From an uncultured Roseobacter sp. (GTDB lineage: Bacteria > Pseudomonadota > Alphaproteobacteria > Rhodobacterales > Rhodobacteraceae), in contig NZ_CANLNE010000003.1 of NCBI RefSeq assembly GCF_947492555.1, positions 682,001 to 746,000 of the forward strand: a DNA stretch of 64,000 bases. The letters run 5' to 3'. This document shows, piece by piece, positions 44,324 to 54,199 of this stretch. Position 1 is the first letter of the stretch. Each line of letters begins with the position of its first letter. The notes under the pieces were generated by a model. It saw only the letters and a list, made by a program, of their open reading frames with translations, made no database searches and was not told where the DNA came from. The position numbers were made by a program, and so were the translations under genes.

Positions 44324-44677
44324 TCAGATCGGATTGGCGAGCAGGAAGGCCACGGCAAGAGCGACCTCGATCCCGCCAAAGACCAGCACCTTGCGGCGCG
44401 GTGGGTCGTCAAAGATCAGCGACAGGCCGCGCCCGATAGCGGCACCGAGGAAAGCGAAACCGATCGTCGCGTAGGCCACCGGGTCATCCAGCCAGAGTGC
44501 TGCAAGTCCCGCCACCACAAAGAGTCCGCCCACGGAGGCACGCATCTCGCTCAGCCCCATGGTGCTGGTGGTCGGTGCGAGGTCAAGCGCGGCGGCGGTG
44601 TAGCGCGGGGCGACAAATCCAAAGAGCCCGAAGGCAATCGTCAGCAAGCTGGCAGTGATGTTCACGATATCGGTCAT
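44324..44677 (-). CDS. DUF4345 membrane protein
   Basis: A 117-residue protein with four hydrophobic helices and the DUF4345 pattern (FGLFGFVAPRYTAAALDL, GLSEMRASVGGLFVVAGLAAL, GFAFLGAAIGRGLSLIFDD, VFGGIEVALAVAFLL). Function unknown. Independent of its neighbours apart from orientation. Confidence 0.75.
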   Translation of the reverse strand: MTDIVNITASLLTIAFGLFGFVAPRYTAAALDLAPTTSTMGLSEMRASVGGLFVVAGLAALWLDDPVAYATIGFAFLGAAIGRGLSLIFDDPPRRKVLVFGGIEVALAVAFLLANPI

Positions 44678-44716
44678 GATGCCAGACCTAGCGGGGCACG
44701 GCCCCTTGGCAAGATG

Positions 44717-45451
44717 TTACGGCAGCACCACCGGCTCCGGGCGTCCCATGCGACAGAGATCGCAGATGCGCACGGCTTCGGTGATCCCCATCTCGGCCAG
44801 GGCACGGAAATCGGGCAGGGTGTAGGCGTCGGCGGCGCTGAGGTCGACGTCGTAGCCCAGATCCTGGAAGGAGGCGATGGAGAGGCGGCTGATCGGACGC
44901 TGAGCGCCAGAGAGAAAACCAGTCAGCAATTCATCGCCAAACACCAGCTCGCGCCAGTGGCCTTCGCGGGTGCCTGCACCGCCAGTATTGGCAATGGGCA
45001 CGGCCGCACCCGTGCCGCCAAGCGTCTGGTACTCGCGGATCGCCTCGGACCCGGTGAATCGTGGGTCATTTGTGCCGCTGGCCTCCACCAGTCCCGCGCG
45101 CGTCCAGAGCGTGCCGAACCCAAGCACATGTGCCATCTCATGCAGCACCACGTCCTCGAAACTGGCGTTTGTCTCAAGCCGTTCGACGTCGGCGGTGTCG
45201 AACTGCATGATGCCTGCCACCGGCAGTTCCGATCCCGGACGCAGGGCGGTCGGCCCGGCCTGACCCAGCACGCCTTCCGGCCCGTCGATGGGGGCGATGG
45301 AGACTTCTATGAGCAAACCGTCGAGTTGGCGGCCCTCAAACTGGATGGGTTCGAAGGCAGTGTCGATGATCGCGTCCCAGCGGTCGGCGGCACGGGCAAA
45401 GGCGCTGCGCCTTGGGTCTGAAATCGGGGTGGTGAAGTCGAGTGTGATCAT
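44717..45451 (-). CDS. Leishmanolysin-like zinc metallopeptidase
   Basis: A 244-residue protein starting MITLDFTTPISDPRRSAFARAADRWD; a longer TTG start adds 15 unrelated residues. The zinc motif HEMAHVLGFGTLW is followed, after an insert, by a third candidate His in EGHWRELVFGDELLTG and by SIASFQDLGYDVDLSAAD, the pattern of M8-like bacterial proteins. There is no signal peptide; such proteins are usually exported by type I secretion or act as calcium-rich adhesin-linked proteases, but no RTX repeats are seen. Activity is predicted, substrate unknown. Confidence 0.75.
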   Translation of the reverse strand: MITLDFTTPISDPRRSAFARAADRWDAIIDTAFEPIQFEGRQLDGLLIEVSIAPIDGPEGVLGQAGPTALRPGSELPVAGIMQFDTADVERLETNASFEDVVLHEMAHVLGFGTLWTRAGLVEASGTNDPRFTGSEAIREYQTLGGTGAAVPIANTGGAGTREGHWRELVFGDELLTGFLSGAQRPISRLSIASFQDLGYDVDLSAADAYTLPDFRALAEMGITEAVRICDLCRMGRPEPVVLP

Positions 45452-45599
45452 CTGTGCACCTGTCTCAATTACGGCGGCCGCGGGGGCGGCGTTCAATCAC
45501 AGGTAGGGTCAGATATACCTGTTTGAAACAGGCTGGCGTGGCGGCGGCGTAAATCTGCGGGCTTGACGTATCCGAGCGGCGGGTTCCGGCGTATCGGCG

Positions 45600-46331
45600 T
45601 CAGCTGCGTGCCGCGCGGGCCGCAAAGACGCTTTGCGCCAGGTCCTGGGTTTCGGTTTCCAGTGCGGTCAGGGCGGCCAGCGTTGTCGCGCCGTCACCAG
45701 CTTCAACTGCATCGGCGATGTCGGTGTGCAGTGCGATGATACGGGCGCGGTCGCGGGCGGTGAAGGTGATCATGTTCATCAGCGGCTGCATCGCCTCGAC
45801 CGCACCTGCCAGTTGATACGACAACACCGGGTTGCCCGCGCCATCGACCAGCGCGCGGTGAAAGGCCACATCAGAGGCACAGAAGGCTTCATCCGTCAGG
45901 CCCGGTTGTGATTGGCGGTGAATCTCGGCGCGCATAGTCGCCAGATGGTCAGGGGTGCGGCGCGCGGCGGCGAGCGGCGCACAGGCGCGCTCCAGCGCAT
46001 AGCGCGCCTCGCAGGCGGTCTCGAAGCTGACCGCGTTCATGCTGAGCAGCAGCGTCGAGGTGGTGATCTGCTGAGGCTGTGCTGCCTCAAAGCTCAGCCG
46101 GTTCACAAACGCGCCACCCGTGGCCCCCCTCTGGGTCCGGATCAGCGACTGCGCCGCCAGCCGTTTCAGCGCCTCGCGCACCGTCGGGCGGGAGACGTCG
46201 AATTGCTCGGCCAGCTCTGCCTCTGAGGGCAGGCGTTCATCAACGATCAACCCGCCCGAAATGATCGCATCGCGGATTGCGGCGGCGATCTGCGCGGAGA
46301 GGTCGGCGGGGTTATCGGGATCGATTTTCAT
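45600..46331 (-). CDS. GntR/FadR-family regulator next to the dmdA operon
   Basis: A 243-residue protein with a GntR winged-helix (LPSEAELAEQFDVSRPTVREALKRL) and a C-terminal FCD ligand domain with metal-binding His residues (DVAFHRALVDGAGN). The start is placed at MKIDPDNPADLSAQ, not the upstream frame start. It is divergent from DUF2182-DUF1326-DinB-dmdA-acuI across 71 bases, and a palindrome abuts its start codon. In Ruegeria a GntR gene is next to dmdA, so control of DMSP demethylation is a reasonable inference. Confidence 0.88.
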   Translation of the reverse strand: MKIDPDNPADLSAQIAAAIRDAIISGGLIVDERLPSEAELAEQFDVSRPTVREALKRLAAQSLIRTQRGATGGAFVNRLSFEAAQPQQITTSTLLLSMNAVSFETACEARYALERACAPLAAARRTPDHLATMRAEIHRQSQPGLTDEAFCASDVAFHRALVDGAGNPVLSYQLAGAVEAMQPLMNMITFTARDRARIIALHTDIADAVEAGDGATTLAALTALETETQDLAQSVFAARAARS

Positions 46332-46342
46332 ATGTCTTACAT
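46332..46342. promoter_or_regulatory. Candidate GntR operator
   Basis: The palindrome ATGT-N3-ACAT (perfect 4-bp arms) lies immediately next to the GntR start codon in the 71-base divergent region. FCD-type regulators bind short palindromes of the form TGT-N3-ACA, so this is a good candidate for autorepression and control of the dmdA-containing run. Confidence 0.5.
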
Positions 46343-46402
46343 TTAATGTTTGCCCGGGTTCTAATTGTCTGGCATTTGAATCGCAAGGAGACAAGACGAC
46401 TC

Positions 46403-47176
46403 ATGCACGCCACCCTGCGCACCACCCTCTGGCTGGGCTTTTTCGCCGCCATTCTGGCGGCGTGGTGGGTGATGTACTTGATGAGCGTCGATATGGATCT
46501 GGACCTGCTGGGCCGTCCGGGGCCGCAGGGGCAGGCGATGGCCGCGATGGATCCGCGGATGCCCATGTATATGCCGATGGCGAATTTCGGGCCGCTCTTT
46601 TGGATGTGGGCGATCATGATGGCGGCGATGATGCTGCCGACGCTGGTGCCGACGCTGCGGGCCTATGAGGACCTGATGGTCAGTGCCAATGGAACGCGCG
46701 CGGGCTGGCTGGGCGTGCTGTTGGGGTATTTCATTGTCTGGGTCGTCTTTGCCGCCGTGATCACCGGCGCGCAACTGGTGCTGCTCTTTGGCGGTGTGGT
46801 GGACATGCTGGGCATCGCGCGCAGCCCGTGGGTCGCCGGCGGATTGCTGCTGGCCGTGGGGGCGTTCCAGTTCACGCGGGCCAAGGAAATCTGCCATGGA
46901 GTGTGCCATGCACCGGCGATGTACTTCCTCGGACATTGGCGCACCGGGTTTGCGGGCGGGTTGCGCATGGGACTGGGGCTGGGCGCGTTTTGCGTCGGCT
47001 GCTGCTGGGGGTTCATGTCGCTGGGGTTTGTCGGCGGCGTGATGAACCTGGCGTGGATGGGGCTGGCGACCCTGTTCATGGTGATCGAGAAGCTGCCTCA
47101 GATCGGGCATTATGTAACAAAACCCATGGGTGTGCTGCTCTGTGCGGCAGGTTTTTGGGTGATCGTGGGAGGATAG
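46403..47176 (+). CDS. DUF2182 predicted metal-binding membrane protein
   Basis: A 257-residue membrane protein with about six helices. Metal-ligand-rich features are visible: repeated Met residues (DPRMPMYMPMANF, MWAIMMAAMMLPTLVPTLRAYE), conserved KEICHGVCHAPAMYF and FCVGCCWGFM. The ATG at 46403 follows AAGGAG; the frame extends further upstream without a ribosome site. DUF2182 proteins are commonly encoded next to DUF1326, as here (3-base gap). Copper or other metal handling is suspected but unproven. Confidence 0.8.
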   Translation: MHATLRTTLWLGFFAAILAAWWVMYLMSVDMDLDLLGRPGPQGQAMAAMDPRMPMYMPMANFGPLFWMWAIMMAAMMLPTLVPTLRAYEDLMVSANGTRAGWLGVLLGYFIVWVVFAAVITGAQLVLLFGGVVDMLGIARSPWVAGGLLLAVGAFQFTRAKEICHGVCHAPAMYFLGHWRTGFAGGLRMGLGLGAFCVGCCWGFMSLGFVGGVMNLAWMGLATLFMVIEKLPQIGHYVTKPMGVLLCAAGFWVIVGG

Positions 47177-47179
47177 AGA

Positions 47180-47887
47180 ATGGCCAAGAACAGGAAGGCG
47201 GATGCGGATCGTTTGCCGATTTCGCAGCGCATCGACCAGCGGATGCCGAACCCAAAGCGACGGCAGACCAGCCCCACCGAATGGGCGATCAAGGGCGAGC
47301 TGTTTCTGAACTGCTCCTGCACGGTGTTTTGCCCCTGCGTGGTCAGCCTGGGTGCACATCCGCCCACCGAAGGGCATTGCCACGCCTGGATGGCGATTGC
47401 CATTGATGAAGGGCACTATGAGGGTGAGGACCTTGGCGGGCTGAACATCGGGCTGCTCGTGGACATACCGGGGCGTATGGGCGAGGGGAACTGGAAAGTG
47501 GCCGCCTATGTCGATGAGCGGGCGACCGGCAAGGCGTACAATGGGATTCTGCAGATTTTCTCGGGTGCGGCGGGCGGCACCACGGGGCTCTTTACGATGC
47601 TGGTGAGCGAGATCATCGGCGCGGAACGCGCGCCCGTCGAGATCGTGCGCGAGGGCAATCGCCGGTCGATCATGATCGGGCGCAAGATACAGGGCGAGAT
47701 CGAGATGGTGGCCGGCAAGGACCCGGAACATCCGGTGATGGTGAGCAATTCGAAGTACTGGATGGGTCCCGACATCATCGCGGCCACAGGGCTGAAAAGC
47801 CGGGTGCGCGATTATGGCCGGGTGTGGGATTTCGGCGGAAAATCGGCCGAGATCTGCCCGATTGACTGGAAAGGCCCCAAGCCGTGA
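47180..47887 (+). CDS. DUF1326 protein with Cys-rich motif
   Basis: A 235-residue soluble protein with the DUF1326 pattern: ELFLNCSCTVFCPCVVSLGAHPPTEGHCHAWMAI, a four-Cys cluster plus His suited to metal or cluster binding, then FSGAAGGTTGLFTMLVSEI and SKYWMGPDIIAATG. No enzymatic role is established. It is sandwiched tightly between DUF2182 (3-base gap) and DinB (4-base overlap), implying a functional unit. Confidence 0.8.
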   Translation: MAKNRKADADRLPISQRIDQRMPNPKRRQTSPTEWAIKGELFLNCSCTVFCPCVVSLGAHPPTEGHCHAWMAIAIDEGHYEGEDLGGLNIGLLVDIPGRMGEGNWKVAAYVDERATGKAYNGILQIFSGAAGGTTGLFTMLVSEIIGAERAPVEIVREGNRRSIMIGRKIQGEIEMVAGKDPEHPVMVSNSKYWMGPDIIAATGLKSRVRDYGRVWDFGGKSAEICPIDWKGPKP

Positions 47888-48387
47888 TCGACCCGACCTA
47901 TGCGCAGATGATGGCGCGCTACAACGCCTGGCAGAACCGGTGGATGTTCGCGGCGGTCGAGTCGTTGAGCGATGAGGCGCGGGAGGCCGACCGGGGGCTG
48001 TTCTGGGGGTCGATCCGGGCCACGCTCAGCCATCTGATGTGGGGCGACTTGATGTGGATGTCGCGCTTTGATGGGGGTGAGGGGCCGTCAAAGCCCTTGA
48101 ATGAGACGGACAACGCCTATGCCTGGCCCGAACTCATGGCAGAGCGCCCTGCTGTGGATGCGCGTATCACCCGTTGGGCCGCGGGTGTCGCCGATGAGGC
48201 GTTCGATGGAGATCTGACCTGGTGGTCGGGTGCTGCGGGGCGTGAGATGTCGAAGTCTTATGCGCTCTGCGTGGTGCATTTCTTCAACCACCAGACCCAT
48301 CACCGTGGACAGGTGCACGGGGCCTTGACGGCACTTGGGGTGAAGACCGACGACACCGACATTCCCTTCATGCCAGAGGATGCCTGA
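47884..48387 (+). CDS. DinB-family protein
   Basis: A 167-residue four-helix-bundle protein of the DinB/YfiT type: MARYNAWQNRWMF with the first metal-ligand region, LSHLMWGDLMWMSR with His, and the C-terminal HFFNHQTHHRGQVHGAL supplying two more His ligands. Relatives include mycothiol- and bacillithiol-dependent transferases; for this subgroup the thiol or substrate is unknown. It overlaps DUF1326 and ends one base before dmdA. Confidence 0.82.
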   Translation: MIDPTYAQMMARYNAWQNRWMFAAVESLSDEAREADRGLFWGSIRATLSHLMWGDLMWMSRFDGGEGPSKPLNETDNAYAWPELMAERPAVDARITRWAAGVADEAFDGDLTWWSGAAGREMSKSYALCVVHFFNHQTHHRGQVHGALTALGVKTDDTDIPFMPEDA

Positions 48388-48388
48388 G

Positions 48389-49492
48389 ATGGCGCTGATC
48401 TCTCCGTCGCGGCGGCTGCGCCGTACGCCCTTTTCCGCCGGTGTCGAGGCGGCGGGCGTCAAGGCCTATACGATCTACAACCACATGCTGCTGCCCACGG
48501 TCTTCGAGAGCGTCGAGGCGGATTACCACCACCTGAAGAACAACGTGCAGGTCTGGGATGTCTCCGCCGAGCGGCAGGTGGAGTTGCGCGGGCCCGATGC
48601 GGCGCGGTTGATGCAGATGCTGACGCCGCGCGATCTGAGGGGCATGTTGCCGGGGCGGTGTTTTTACGTGCCGATTGTCGATGAGACGGGCGGCATGCTC
48701 AACGACCCGGTAGCGGTGAAACTGGCCGAGGACCGTTGGTGGATTTCCATTGCCGACAGTGATTTGCTGCTCTGGGTCAAAGGGATTGCCAATGGCTGGC
48801 GGCTGGATGTGCTGATCGACGAGCCGGATGTGAGCCCGCTGGCGGTGCAGGGGCCGAAGGCGGAGGATTTGATGGCGCGGGTCTTTGGCGAGAGCATCCG
48901 CGACGTGCGTTTCTTTCGCTTTGGCCTCTTTGAGTTTGAGGGGCGCGAACTGGCGATTGCGCGCTCGGGCTATTCGAAACAGGGGGGCTTCGAGATTTAC
49001 GTGGAGGGCGGCGATCTGGGCATGCCACTGTGGAACGCGCTTTTCAAGGCGGGCGAAGACCTGAACGTACGGGCGGGCTGCCCAAATGCCATCGAACGGA
49101 TCGAGGGCGGGCTTCTGAGCTATGGTAATGATATGACCGACGACAATACGCCGCATGAATGCGGGCTGGGGCGGTTCTGTGACACGCAGACGGCCATTGG
49201 CTGTATCGGCCGCGACGCGCTTTTGCGCGTGGCCAAAGAGGGGCCGGTGCAGCAGGTGCAGGCGATTGCCATTGAGGGTGATCCGGTGCCGGGCTGTGAC
49301 CGGGTCTGGCCGCTTTTTGGCGGTGGTCGGCGCGTGGGACAGGTCACCTCGGCCGCGTGGAGCCCGGATTTTGAGACCAATGTGGCCATTGGCATGGTGC
49401 GCATGACCCACTGGGACAGTGGCACGGAGCTGGAGGTGGAGACGCCGGATGGCATGCGCAAGGCCGTGGTGCAGCCCGGATTCTGGGCCTGA
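48389..49492 (+). CDS. dmdA: Dimethylsulfoniopropionate demethylase
   Basis: A 367-residue GcvT-fold enzyme that moves a methyl group from DMSP to tetrahydrofolate, giving methylmercaptopropionate. The start MALISPSRRLRRTPFSAGVEAAGVKAYTIYNHM and the blocks NDPVAVKLAEDRWW, SPLAVQGPKAEDLMARVFGE, SKQGGFEIYVEG and GLLSYGNDMT match roseobacter DmdA far better than GcvT or sarcosine dehydrogenase. It starts one base after the DinB stop and is followed by acuI, as in Ruegeria. Confidence 0.93.
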   Translation: MALISPSRRLRRTPFSAGVEAAGVKAYTIYNHMLLPTVFESVEADYHHLKNNVQVWDVSAERQVELRGPDAARLMQMLTPRDLRGMLPGRCFYVPIVDETGGMLNDPVAVKLAEDRWWISIADSDLLLWVKGIANGWRLDVLIDEPDVSPLAVQGPKAEDLMARVFGESIRDVRFFRFGLFEFEGRELAIARSGYSKQGGFEIYVEGGDLGMPLWNALFKAGEDLNVRAGCPNAIERIEGGLLSYGNDMTDDNTPHECGLGRFCDTQTAIGCIGRDALLRVAKEGPVQQVQAIAIEGDPVPGCDRVWPLFGGGRRVGQVTSAAWSPDFETNVAIGMVRMTHWDSGTELEVETPDGMRKAVVQPGFWA

Positions 49493-49525
49493 CGACAGGC
49501 ATGCGCTGGCGGATCGCTTGTGCAT

Positions 49526-49547
49526 GCATATTTGGAGAACAATGAAG
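49526..49547 (+). repeat. Intergenic repeat motif, copy 2 (dmdA-acuI)
   Basis: Matches the 22-base motif at 25900-25921 at 21 positions (G instead of A at the tenth base). It again sits just after a stop codon (dmdA) and before a co-directional start (acuI, 32 bases later). A function in transcript processing or translation coupling is possible. Confidence 0.6.
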
Positions 49548-49579
49548 CAGGGGCGTGCCCCCGGATTGGGAGATGTGAG

Positions 49580-50572
49580 ATGTTCAAGGCACTTGTGGTG
49601 AGCAAGGATGAGGAAAGCGGCAAGACATCGGCGGCTGTGCAGGAGATCGGTGAAGATCAACTGCCGGCGGGGGATGTGACGGTTGCCGTCGAATACTCGA
49701 CGGTGAACTACAAGGACGGGCTTTGCATCGGACCGGGGGGCGGGCTGGTGCGCAATTATCCGCATGTGCCGGGGATCGATTTTGCCGGGACCGTCGAGGC
49801 CTCGGACGATGATCGCTATGCGCCGGGTGACAAGGTGGTGCTGACTGGCTGGCGTGTCGGTGAGGCGCATTGGGGCGGCTACGCGCAAAAGGCGCGGGTC
49901 AGGGGGGACTGGCTGGTGCCGCTGCCTGATGGGCTGGATACACGCAAGGCCATGGCTGTGGGAACCGCCGGGTTTACTGCAATGCTCGCAGTGATGGCGT
50001 TGGAAGATCATGGGCTGACAGTGGGTGATGGCCCGGTGCTGGTGACGGGTGCCGCCGGGGGTGTCGGGTCGGTAGCTACGGCGATTCTGGCCTATCTGGG
50101 GCATGATGTCGCCGGTGTGACAGGGCGCCCTGAAACAGCCGATTACCTTAAGGAGCTAGGGGCAACGCAGATCGTGGCACGGGAAGAGATCAACGAGACC
50201 GTCAAACGACCGCTTGAGGCGGAAACCTGGGCGGGTTGTGTGGACGCGGTTGGAGGTGCGATGCTTGCACGGGTTCTGGGGCAGATGAAATACGGCACGT
50301 CCGTTTCGGCTGTGGGCCTGGCTGGCGGTGCTGGCCTGCCTGCGACAGTGATCCCTTTTCTGCTGCGTGGCGTAAACCTGCTCGGCATTGATTCCGTCAT
50401 GCAGCCTTATGAAAACAGGGTGCGGGCCTGGAAGCGCATCGCGTCTGATCTGCCCATGGACAAGCTGGAGGCCATGGTGCACCCGGCAACGCTTGGGGAT
50501 TTGCCGCAGCTGGGTGCGGATATCCTGAAAGGGCAGGTCAAGGGCCGGGTGGTTGTGGATGTAAACGCTTAA
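49580..50572 (+). CDS. acuI: Acryloyl-CoA reductase AcuI
   Basis: A 330-residue zinc-free MDR oxidoreductase that reduces acryloyl-CoA to propionyl-CoA with NADPH. The start MFKALVVSKDEESGKTSA is typical, with GGGAG upstream. Family features: YSTVNYKDGLCIGP, VPGIDFAGTV, GTAGFTAMLAVMALE and the Rossmann VTGAAGGVGSVA. It detoxifies acrylate from DMSP cleavage. Co-occurrence behind dmdA in one transcript is known from Ruegeria. Confidence 0.92.
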   Translation: MFKALVVSKDEESGKTSAAVQEIGEDQLPAGDVTVAVEYSTVNYKDGLCIGPGGGLVRNYPHVPGIDFAGTVEASDDDRYAPGDKVVLTGWRVGEAHWGGYAQKARVRGDWLVPLPDGLDTRKAMAVGTAGFTAMLAVMALEDHGLTVGDGPVLVTGAAGGVGSVATAILAYLGHDVAGVTGRPETADYLKELGATQIVAREEINETVKRPLEAETWAGCVDAVGGAMLARVLGQMKYGTSVSAVGLAGGAGLPATVIPFLLRGVNLLGIDSVMQPYENRVRAWKRIASDLPMDKLEAMVHPATLGDLPQLGADILKGQVKGRVVVDVNA

Positions 50573-50581
50573 GCAGGTTCC

Positions 50582-50620
50582 AAAAGGCAGGAGGTGGTCA
50601 CTGACCGTGCCACCTCTGCC
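50582..50620 (-). terminator. Terminator between acuI and the SnoaL genes
   Basis: An 11-bp stem with one bulged G (GGCAG-G-AGGTGG against CCACCT-CTGCC) lies between the convergent genes. On the minus strand it is followed by TTTT, fitting termination of the SnoaL pair; for acuI there is no T run. Confidence 0.55.
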
Positions 50621-50645
50621 GGATTGCCGGTGCACGGGTGCGGGT

Positions 50646-51089
50646 TTACTCTGTGTGCTGGTGCCACATGTCGGTGATAATTTTCCAGCCGTCGTCTTCG
50701 GGTTGCAGCACGAAGAGATAGGTGCCTGTTGCGTCCATCCCCGCAGTTTCAATCACGGCTTCGACTGATCCGATCATGACTGCGAGAGTTGCATCTTCGG
50801 AAACAAAAAGGTGGTCGATGGTGTGGGTGACCCTGCCTGCGTTCTCCGTCACAAAGTCAAAGAGTTCGCGTGGCCCGGCAAGGCCATGGCGGACGGGCGC
50901 ACCTTGCGCAATCCAGAGTGTGTCTTCTGCGTAGAGGCTGACCAGTGCGTCCGCATCAGAACTTGCGGCTGACGCGTTGAAGGTATTGTTGAGGGCTGTC
51001 AGGCTTGAGAGTGCCGAATCCGCAGGCGTTTCGGCAAGTGCCAGACCGGGTGCTATGCTCAATGCTGCAAGAAGGGTGATTTTCTTCAT
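50646..51089 (-). CDS. Exported SnoaL/DUF4440-like protein
   Basis: A 147-residue protein with a Sec signal peptide (MKKITLLAALSIAPGLALA) and an NTF2-like domain (FNASAASSDADALVSLYAEDTLWIAQGAPVRHG, YLFVLQPEDDGWKIITDMWHQH). The C-terminal WKIITDMWHQH strand is typical of ketosteroid isomerase-like folds. It lies 35 bases after a cytoplasmic SnoaL paralogue and both are divergent from a TetR gene. Confidence 0.78.
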   Translation of the reverse strand: MKKITLLAALSIAPGLALAETPADSALSSLTALNNTFNASAASSDADALVSLYAEDTLWIAQGAPVRHGLAGPRELFDFVTENAGRVTHTIDHLFVSEDATLAVMIGSVEAVIETAGMDATGTYLFVLQPEDDGWKIITDMWHQHTE

Positions 51090-52354: not shown

Positions 52355-54199
52355 TTATTCTGCCGGTTGTGGATCCGGATCGCTTACGGCAATGCCAGCT
52401 TTCTCGCGACGGCCATCGTTAAAGAGCGCCTTGATTAGCGACAGCACCATCAGCACCATCACCATGGTAAAGGGCAGGGCGCCGATGATCATGGCGTTCT
52501 GCAAGGCGGAGAGACCGCCACCGCCCGCCAACAGCAGCGTGCCGATCACCAGCGTGAGGATCACACCCCAGATGATGCGGTGCTTGACACCGGTTTCCTC
52601 GGCGCCGCCAGACATGATGGTGTTCATCACCAGTATGCCGGAATCCGCAGAGGTCACTAGGAAAGTCATGATCAGAACCACGCACATGATCACCAGCCCC
52701 TGAAGTAGACCGCCCGAGAGCATCTGTTCCAGCGTCACGAAGAGTTTCGCGGAGTTGGAGGCGGCAATGATCGCGCCATCTGCGCCGCCGGTGATCTCCA
52801 GGTCAATGGCGGTGCCGCCCAGAATGGTCATCCAGGCAAAACACACCAGCGCAGGAGCAATCACCGCGCCGAGCACGAATTCACGCACTGTACGGCCCCG
52901 GGAGATGCGTGCGAGGAAGAGACCTACGAAGGGCGAGAAGGCGATCCACCAGGCCCAGTAGAAGGTGGTCCACCCGGCCTGCCAGCCGAAGAGGCGCCCC
53001 TGATCGCCTGCGTCATAGGCTGCGGCAAGGTCGGCAGCGGGCAGGCTGGCTGCTGCGCCCTCCAGACCGCCGGTGAAGCCGTCAAGGCTGCCCCAGGGGT
53101 TCGTGGCTCCGGCGTAGACCGCGCCCAGTTCCTCTGCAGGCAGGGCCTGCACGGAGGCAGGCGCAACGGCTGCAAAAGCCTCCTGGCTCAGCGGTGCGTA
53201 GGCCTCAAAACTGAGGTTCACGAAGGCGATCAGGTAGTCGATCAGCGCCGTGACATAGGTGGTCATCGCAAAGAGGAAGGAGCCGAAGATGATGAAGGTC
53301 AGCAGCAGGATCAGCGACAGCACGAGGTTCAGGTTCGACAGGTATTTCACCCCACGTCCGACTCCCGATACGGCTGAAATGATCGACATGCCCATGATCA
53401 CCACAAGCGCTGCAATCAGACCGGTCTTGGTGGCTTGCGGGGTCTCACCGCTTGTATCCATCATCCACTCCGCTCCGGTAATCGCATAGACACCGTCGAC
53501 AAGCTGACTGACACCGAAACCGATGGTCACAGACACGCCGAGGATCGTCGCAACCACGCCAAGAACGTCGATGATGTGCCCGAAGAATCCATTGGCAAAA
53601 CGCCCGATCAGAGGCGTCAGAGCGGAGCGGATTGTCAGCGGCATGCCGCGGGTGTAGGCGTAATAGGCAAGGCTCAACCCGGTGACCACGTAAATTGCCC
53701 AAGCGTGAAACCCGTAGTGCAGGAAGGTGTAACGGTAGGTGCTGGTCAGTGCCTCGGGCGTATTGCCGGATACGTCCCCTGCAACAACAACGGGGTTCGA
53801 TCCCCAGAGGCCAAGGGGTTCCGCCGTTGCAAAAGTCATCAGACCGACACCCAGACCGGCGCCGAACATCATCGAGAACCAGCTGAAGTTACTGAACTCG
53901 GGCTTCTGTCCCTGTATGCCAAGCACCCGGCTTCCGGTCGAGGGGATCAGCGCGATGATGATCAGGAAGAACGCGAAAGCACCGACCGAAATGATGTAGA
54001 AGGTGTTAAAGGAGTTCAGCAACGTGCCGTTGATCTGTGACAGCATCGCCCCCGCGCCCGCAGGAAAGACCAGGGCCCAGAGGACCAGAAGCACCATCCC
54101 GACTTTTGAGATCAATGCGATCGGAAGGCTGTAGCCTTCGTAGAAACCGGAGTCCTGAGTGTTGATCTCAAGCTCCGTAAACGGCGGTTTGACAGACAT
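52355..54199 (-). CDS. BCCT-family betaine/choline/DMSP-type transporter
   Basis: A 614-residue transporter with twelve predicted helices. BCCT hallmarks are the glycine stretch MMFGAGLGVGLM in TM3, the region PLGLWG, and the aromatic substrate-site segment GWTTFYWAWWIAFSPFVGLFLARISRGRTVREF. A periplasmic loop of about 60 residues (380-440) is unusually Ala-rich. BCCT proteins take up glycine betaine, choline, carnitine or DMSP, usually with Na+. dmdA nearby makes DMSP plausible, but the substrate cannot be fixed from sequence. Confidence 0.93.
   Translation of the reverse strand: MSVKPPFTELEINTQDSGFYEGYSLPIALISKVGMVLLVLWALVFPAGAGAMLSQINGTLLNSFNTFYIISVGAFAFFLIIIALIPSTGSRVLGIQGQKPEFSNFSWFSMMFGAGLGVGLMTFATAEPLGLWGSNPVVVAGDVSGNTPEALTSTYRYTFLHYGFHAWAIYVVTGLSLAYYAYTRGMPLTIRSALTPLIGRFANGFFGHIIDVLGVVATILGVSVTIGFGVSQLVDGVYAITGAEWMMDTSGETPQATKTGLIAALVVIMGMSIISAVSGVGRGVKYLSNLNLVLSLILLLTFIIFGSFLFAMTTYVTALIDYLIAFVNLSFEAYAPLSQEAFAAVAPASVQALPAEELGAVYAGATNPWGSLDGFTGGLEGAAASLPAADLAAAYDAGDQGRLFGWQAGWTTFYWAWWIAFSPFVGLFLARISRGRTVREFVLGAVIAPALVCFAWMTILGGTAIDLEITGGADGAIIAASNSAKLFVTLEQMLSGGLLQGLVIMCVVLIMTFLVTSADSGILVMNTIMSGGAEETGVKHRIIWGVILTLVIGTLLLAGGGGLSALQNAMIIGALPFTMVMVLMVLSLIKALFNDGRREKAGIAVSDPDPQPAE

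Follow-up and report, generated by a model that had tools for sequence, protein, structure and literature searches.

A conserved DUF2182-DUF1326 gene pair in the roseobacter dmdA operon, its predicted GntR operator and a possible role in soft-metal handling

The subject of this study is the dmdA locus in a 64,000-nucleotide stretch of DNA from an uncultured Roseobacter sp. (contig NZ_CANLNE010000003.1; the whole stretch is called the window below), where genes for a DUF2182 and a DUF1326 protein precede dmdA, the gene for dimethylsulfoniopropionate (DMSP) demethylase, which is one of the main routes by which DMSP sulfur enters marine bacteria. Five plus-strand genes follow one another in the order DUF2182, DUF1326, DinB, dmdA and acuI, with gaps of 3, -4, 1 and 87 bases, and a gntR gene of the FCD type lies divergent from them, with a palindrome abutting its start (Table 1). 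Sequence and profiles confirmed all of this as the initial annotation had given it.

The DUF2182 protein matched PF09948 (COG5486) over the full length of the profile (1-188 of 188) with 196.3 bits, the gathering score being 28.7; this is the DUF2182 family, whose current Pfam name is PpoB2, 'copper chaperone'. The DUF1326 protein scored 174 bits against PF07040 and has a CxCx3CxC motif, and the DinB protein scored 87.6 bits (cut-off 23). DmdA passes the NF009133 equivalog cut-off of 410 with 695.4 bits, while AcuI, at 425.5 bits, stays under the equivalog cut-off of NF051456 (440) and clears that of the YhdH/acrylyl-CoA reductase subfamily (TIGR02823, 446 bits versus 297). The regulator has a helix-turn-helix and an FCD domain, with a palindromic site beside its gene to which it is predicted to bind; its ATG start at 46331 is our choice, the longer listed open reading frame (ORF) beginning at TTG. 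Judging from the gene spacing, DUF2182 to acuI would be co-transcribed. A separate promoter isolating dmdA from the genes upstream did not appear in an admittedly weak scan of 46300-50700, which gave no sigma-70-like promoter match (1.2 expected); the plus-strand terminator-like matches are all intragenic.

Table 1. Genes and predicted sites at the dmdA locus (window coordinates).
Feature	Position	Strand	Basis
GntR/FCD-type regulator	45600-46331	-	FCD 74.7 bits, GntR 68 bits
Predicted operator ATGTCTTACAT, abutting the GntR start codon	46332-46342		Sequence and conservation in relatives
Degenerate second operator copy TGTCTGGCA, 33 bases downstream of the first (predicted)	46366-46374		Sequence
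DUF2182/PpoB2-type membrane protein	46403-47176	+	PF09948, Met/Cys conservation
DUF1326 protein	47180-47887	+	PF07040, C45-x-C47-x3-C51-x-C53 and C67
DinB-family protein, GTG start, optional member	47884-48387	+	PF05163
dmdA, DMSP demethylase	48389-49492	+	NF009133
acuI, acrylyl-CoA reductase family	49580-50572	+	TIGR02823

The arrangement was followed in 149 genomes of the window's family, with 149 different genus codes, by comparing the coordinates of matches to three family models; locus counts for DUF2182, GntR, DinB and AcuI were made with rebuilt profiles. dmdA exceeded its cut-off in 64 genomes, in 48 of which DUF1326 lies within 6 kb of it, always upstream and on the same strand, with five more carrying DUF1326 elsewhere. 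DUF2182 lies at most 2 kb upstream of 72 of the 94 DUF1326 genes (one of the 72, L066, is of another DUF1326/DUF2182 type and was dropped from later counts), 19 genes show the reverse order and three have no such neighbour. DUF2182 is upstream in all 48 dmdA-linked loci, GntR is divergent in 41 and AcuI lies downstream in 42. DinB, which the initial annotation counted as part of the module, is present in 29, in two of which (L111, L118) it has moved between dmdA and acuI, and is better called optional. The 23 module loci without an adjacent dmdA have a divergent GntR in five cases, AcuI downstream in 16 and DinB in 10; 18 of these loci are in genomes without dmdA over the cut-off, with AcuI downstream in 14. 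Where dmdA stands without the module (20 places), a divergent GntR and a downstream AcuI were each seen four times. Altogether, the module was found in 53 of the 64 dmdA genomes versus 18 of the 85 others (Fisher p 4e-14, with no kinship correction). The module with dmdA is the rule in this family and not a peculiarity of this genome, and the adjacency proposed from the window alone turned out to be usual among its relatives.

Named relatives were taken as the best 80 of at least 576 loci from a search of genome contigs with a DUF1326 alignment; a set picked in this way cannot measure absence of the module, in Ruegeria or elsewhere. Their titles include Roseobacter, Sulfitobacter, Ruegeria, Roseovarius and Tateyamaria, among others, and the top match is 100% identical to the window's DUF1326 protein. 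dmdA follows the module in 72 of the 80 loci, and one of the other eight (L267) stops at a contig end. All 22 Ruegeria loci in this DUF1326-selected set have the module and then dmdA, so the contrast drawn initially with Ruegeria, in which GntR was said to stand directly beside dmdA, holds at most for strains like R. pomeroyi. In that species we take the GntR gene to be divergent from dmdA, presumably with no DUF2182-DUF1326-DinB between regulator and dmdA. Much dmdA genetics comes from R. pomeroyi, which is said to be without the module; should a metal-handling pair head the dmdA transcript in many other roseobacters, work on the pathway has so far missed one of its steps.

Between GntR and DUF2182, a TGTCNGACA-type site (TGTCNKACA/TGTMNGACA), a pattern that was defined after viewing these regions, is found in 44 of 46 one-per-genus regions and in 75 of 75 named regions, compared with 1.1% for mononucleotide shuffles. 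It also occurs in three of the four regions between GntR and dmdA where the module is missing. The commonest form in relatives is approximately TTTGTCWGACATTTAA, and paired copies were seen elsewhere with a spacing of 15 (16 times) and with the spacing of 33 (12 times). It is very probable, in our opinion, that the roseobacter dmdA operon normally includes the module, which is conserved there and lies under a predictable GntR operator.

The window's genome contains WWTGTCNKACAWW in five distinct places (reversed control, 2 rows), namely at the module, before a gene for an SBP56 protein of the methanethiol-oxidase type (70 bases before the gene start), before an acyl-CoA ligase gene (83 bases before the chosen ATG, with the listed TTG start falling on the site) and twice inside ORFs. 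The stricter AWWTGTCNKACAWTT gave 87 distinct places in 60 of the 149 genomes (reversed control, 18 rows), of which 44 belong to a module or dmdA locus. For the remaining 43, the flanking DNA was fetched as 40 stretches and the neighbours classed by reading: 12 places, in nine genomes, flank gntR, with acuI within three genes in seven of the genomes; five are at, or at most 100 bases from, the start of an ORF of the same ligase type (among them L366, L374, L378 and L382); and three precede SBP56. The seven genomes with gntR, acuI and operator have no module, and five of them also have no dmdA over the cut-off, while G120 and G053 have dmdA elsewhere. That the module belongs to a GntR-controlled DMSP/acrylate regulon is well supported, and the conserved operator would tie demethylation, acryloyl-CoA detoxification and methanethiol oxidation to one regulator. 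At one locus (L371, G003:C1:1358000-1368000), in a genome without the module or dmdA over the cut-off, two operator copies separate gntR from a divergent run of an acyl-CoA dehydrogenase-like gene, DinB and acuI, and SBP56 lies downstream of gntR with two ORFs between; regulator, DinB, acuI and oxidase stay together there without the demethylase.

A gntR-SBP56 pair divergent from module-dmdA-acuI, with a shared operator region, is present in 14 of the 80 named loci, which comprise seven of 22 Ruegeria and seven of eight Tateyamaria loci. The SBP56 protein of the window's genome scored 588 bits against PF05694 and 113 bits against the MtoX equivalog NF052453 (cut-off 650), and it has the motifs GWNACS, HTIHC and GGDCS, which the available part of PMC10936201 gives for cluster 1 oxidases. 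An SBP56 match was obtained in 52 genomes, the types being assigned by bit score (four genomes with fragments or broken copies count only in the 'any' class, and three low-scoring genomes are unclassed). In genomes without dmdA, type 2 accompanies the module in three of 18 and occurs without it in four of 67 (p 0.16). Two single loci may be added: at L147 (G066:C1:183548-196639), in a genome without a DUF1326 match, SBP56 comes directly after dmdA, 72 bases away by match coordinates, and in a Ruegeria record (L226:3854-5287) the SBP56 beside gntR consists of two adjacent matches, perhaps through a frameshift or sequencing error.

The acyl-CoA ligase belongs to the PRK08162 subfamily, its best model being NF006020 (657 versus a cut-off of 677). 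We considered naming it DmdB, which the scores do not justify: a 471-residue fragment of the ligase of the window's genome reaches 270 bits against NF005426, the model of the methylmercaptopropionate-CoA ligase DmdB (cut-off 822), and the match to PDB 6ihk/6ijb, listed as an AMP-binding domain protein and which we take to be R. lacuscaerulensis DmdB, is not close at 186 bits. Acrylate is a possible substrate.

Outside the family, the same ligase type goes with the module. When 385 genomes of the class were searched with a module-type DUF1326 profile, nine from other families gave a match, seven of them with the order DUF2182-DUF1326, and the ligase is in the same gene run in all seven (L176, L177, L179, L185 and L386-L388). 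The last three were fetched as a test after the ligase rule was formed; since four of the seven come from one genus, they represent four families and not seven independent cases. L386 reads GntR, DUF2182, DUF1326, dmdA, ligase, acuI; L176, from a genome 64% complete, also has dmdA, and L177 has SBP56 after the ligase, which makes two loci with dmdA, in two families, and one with SBP56. The other two genomes (L164, L183) have none of the DUF2182-DUF1326 order, dmdA, ligase or SBP56. The coupling to DMSP demethylation that the initial annotation had suggested is supported by the linkage in 48 of 64 dmdA genomes, by the shared operator and by the dmdA linkage in two other alphaproteobacterial families.

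Both proteins of the pair keep residues of a metal-binding type. In DUF2182, M68, M72, M76, M77, C164, C168, C197, C200, C201, M205 and M214 are conserved in 96-100% of up to 70 module-type sequences and in 32 of 32 other DUF2182 sequences, and in DUF1326, C45, C47, C51, C53 and C67 are present in 71 of 71 module-type sequences and in 98-100% of 48 others, counted over rows with a residue at the column; the CxCx3CxC motif is invariant in 35 aligned sequences. This Met/Cys pattern suits a soft metal. The predicted model of DUF2182, built from close relatives only, is a helical bundle (predicted local distance difference test, pLDDT, 86.3), while that of DUF1326 is poor (pLDDT 65); an acetoacetate decarboxylase-like fold was considered for DUF1326, and the matches (expectation value, E, down to 1.9e-5, template modelling score approximately 0.40) were too weak to be used. 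A search for sequence relatives in the PDB gave a best E of 0.2 for DUF1326 and none for DUF2182 or DinB.

Known systems offer partial parallels. In Marinomonas mediterranea, PpoB2 is described as taking part in the specific transfer of copper to tyrosinase and as the first member of COG5486 to be given a role; PpoB1-PpoB2 resembles the window's DUF2182 in PF09948 membership, membrane location, link to copper and operon setting, although its client is tyrosinase and the available part of the paper mentions no DUF1326 or DinB partner (PMC2855505). The likeness is by family name. An SBP56 methanethiol oxidase is copper-dependent, and mtoX is often accompanied by SCO1/senC and mauG (PMC5739008), the common feature being a methanethiol oxidase with a linked copper-chaperone gene; the SBP56 of the window's genome differs in its cluster 1 motifs and low MtoX score, and the proposed helper is PpoB2-like and not SCO1. 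The metal handling proposed initially gains indirect support from the conserved Met/Cys ligands and from PpoB2. For the suggested methanethiol link, the operator before some SBP56 genes and the gntR-SBP56 pair beside the module speak in favour, whereas an exclusive tie to demethylation did not hold up, as the module is also kept in genomes without dmdA, mostly with acuI just downstream.

With regard to regulation, the available sections report that dmdA-acuI of R. pomeroyi, which shares its gene order with the window and in which acuI is SPO1914 (PMC4334477), is induced 10-14 fold by either DMSP or acrylate but not by methylmercaptopropionate, and that this order is found in all but two of 26 dmdA-bearing roseobacters (PMC3338564). 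For a response to both DMSP and acrylate, a 222-bp upstream region of dmdA is enough (PMC7181598), and mtoX is strongly DMSP-induced in R. pomeroyi (PMC9769926). The acuR-acuI-dddL operon of Rhodobacter sphaeroides is also an acrylate-responsive acuI operon; unlike the present one it has a TetR-type regulator and a lyase, and no module is described for it in the available part of PMC3338564. In the openly licensed literature searched, we found no description of a DUF2182-DUF1326 module, no paper naming DUF2182, DUF1326 or COG5588, and none that speaks of SPO1912 or of a dmdA repressor or dmdA regulator.

To hypothesize, the six genes form one functional unit, a GntR-controlled DMSP/acrylate operon with a pair that handles a soft metal, probably Cu(I), and we give this reading a probability of about 0.45. 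The GntR/FCD protein, probably an acrylate- or DMSP-responsive repressor, would control the DUF2182-DUF1326-(DinB)-dmdA-acuI operon, which would be read as one transcript, by binding operators of the TGTCNGACA type at the start codon of its own gene; in this genome it probably also controls the acyl-CoA ligase gene and the SBP56 gene. DUF2182 in the membrane, with its Met/Cys sites, and DUF1326, with its CxCx3CxC motif, would together move or buffer the metal. The metal may be supplied to enzymes of the methylthio branch, e.g., the SBP56 oxidase where present, or it may be held in check during the production of methanethiol, a thiol that binds Cu(I). From family resemblance and gene context, soft-metal or copper handling for the methylthio branch appears to be the best available mechanism, and it points to a metal step that has been missed in one of the major routes of the ocean sulfur cycle; the narrower version, in which the pair is a dedicated copper supply for the methylthio branch of DMSP demethylation, seems rather unlikely to us. 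If it were true, DUF1326 would gain its first function, and copper availability would be a hidden control on roseobacter methanethiol turnover versus release. The novelty sits in the operon and regulon and not in this single genome.

Several results weigh against the reading of the locus as one metal-handling unit. DUF1326 is absent altogether from 11 of the 64 dmdA genomes, 18 of the 85 genomes without dmdA keep the module, and neither main SBP56 type was found in 18 of the 53 genomes with dmdA and module (including G031, with a weak match). By these counts, DmdA does not strictly require the module, and the module is not exclusive to SBP56. Among dmdA genomes, presence of the module brings no significant enrichment in type 2 SBP56 (24 of 53 versus 3 of 11, p 0.33). 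As a whole answer, a chaperone dedicated to the SBP56 oxidase was rejected in its strict form on these numbers. A looser operator pattern, applied to 30 fetched SBP56 genes, found a site within 300 bases upstream in only five (three with good flanks, two with weak ones), and 23 of the 43 off-locus operator places have no explanation; L354, which is among them, is at a more distant relative of the ligase. Outside the family, an earlier class-wide sample had DUF1326 beside dmdA in one of 17 dmdA genomes (G340); linkage to dmdA is thus chiefly characteristic of the window's family. The scan of the locus gave seven terminator-like matches where 2.9 were expected, and a pair at the extreme end of DUF2182 (47133-47159) may cause partial attenuation. 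Finally, the DUF2182 model had no PDB fold match at E 0.001 or better, and the literature searched held no copper experiment on the module's subfamily.

The acuI side of the locus invites another explanation, in which the module serves acrylate or acryloyl-CoA handling with acuI, and a module-acuI locus either gained dmdA by insertion or lost it repeatedly. The frequent presence of acuI after modules without adjacent dmdA (16 of 23) would fit this, as would the acrylate induction in R. pomeroyi (PMC3338564). The operator stays with gntR and acuI in the seven module-less genomes, five of which also have no dmdA above the cut-off. On the AcuI tree the three locus states are intermingled (18 changes, shuffled mean 18.8), which gives no direction as to gain or loss of dmdA. 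Those same gntR-acuI loci, however, manage without the module, and six of the seven DUF2182-DUF1326 loci of other families have no AcuI match in the 9-13 kb fetched while all carry the ligase, which could itself act on acrylate. We know of no chemistry linking Met/Cys metal sites to acrylate, and on balance consider this explanation unlikely.

General protection from thiol or metal stress, with the module exporting or buffering copper or another soft metal mobilised by methanethiol and no client enzyme, would account for the conserved soft-metal ligands, for the dmdA and module genomes without either SBP56 type and for the persistence of the module beside the ligase outside the family. Yet PpoB2, the only COG5486 protein with a role in the literature consulted, delivers copper to an enzyme according to the part of PMC2855505 available, and two genera have gntR-SBP56 linked to the module; protection without a client strikes us as quite improbable. 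Mere hitch-hiking, i.e., an unrelated pair held at a syntenic locus by vertical descent, is disfavoured and very unlikely: the genes downstream of acuI are also partly syntenic, but the block has been remodelled around the module (DinB in or out, or after dmdA in L111 and L118, and the ligase in or out), the upstream flanks look variable by eye, and four other families have the pair together with the ligase, two of them with dmdA as well.

As for the unexplained operator matches, those at L349-L362, L364, L368, L369, L373, L375, L379, L381, L383 and L385 may be due to chance or mark other members of the regulon. A second type of DUF1326/DUF2182 pair (L132-L140 and many of L161-L200), mostly in the order DUF1326-DUF2182, which 19 of the 94 family genes show, also keeps the Met/Cys sites described above; a common partner for such pairs was sought by eye in 22 neighbourhoods, and none was evident. 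Long open frames had raised the suspicion of a DUF2182-DUF1326 gene fusion, which was rejected because in G092, the sole case checked by hand, the two matches are in different frames; over-long ORF starts account for the high first-pass scores.

The genes around the locus in the window (44324-45496 and 50646-51089) encode DUF4345, leishmanolysin-like and DUF4440/SnoaL-like proteins; DUF4345 has relatives in 16 fetched loci (cluster c12), and the other two have none there. In many genera (L061-L131; clusters c5, c6 and c7), acuI is followed by a run of genes for a pyridoxal phosphate enzyme, a photolyase and a cyclopropane-fatty-acid synthase, putative assignments by eye. A gene for a BCCT-family transporter, which may import DMSP, lies 1.8 kb past acuI (52355-54199), and its relatives (cluster c9) occur in the gene clusters of 19 fetched loci.

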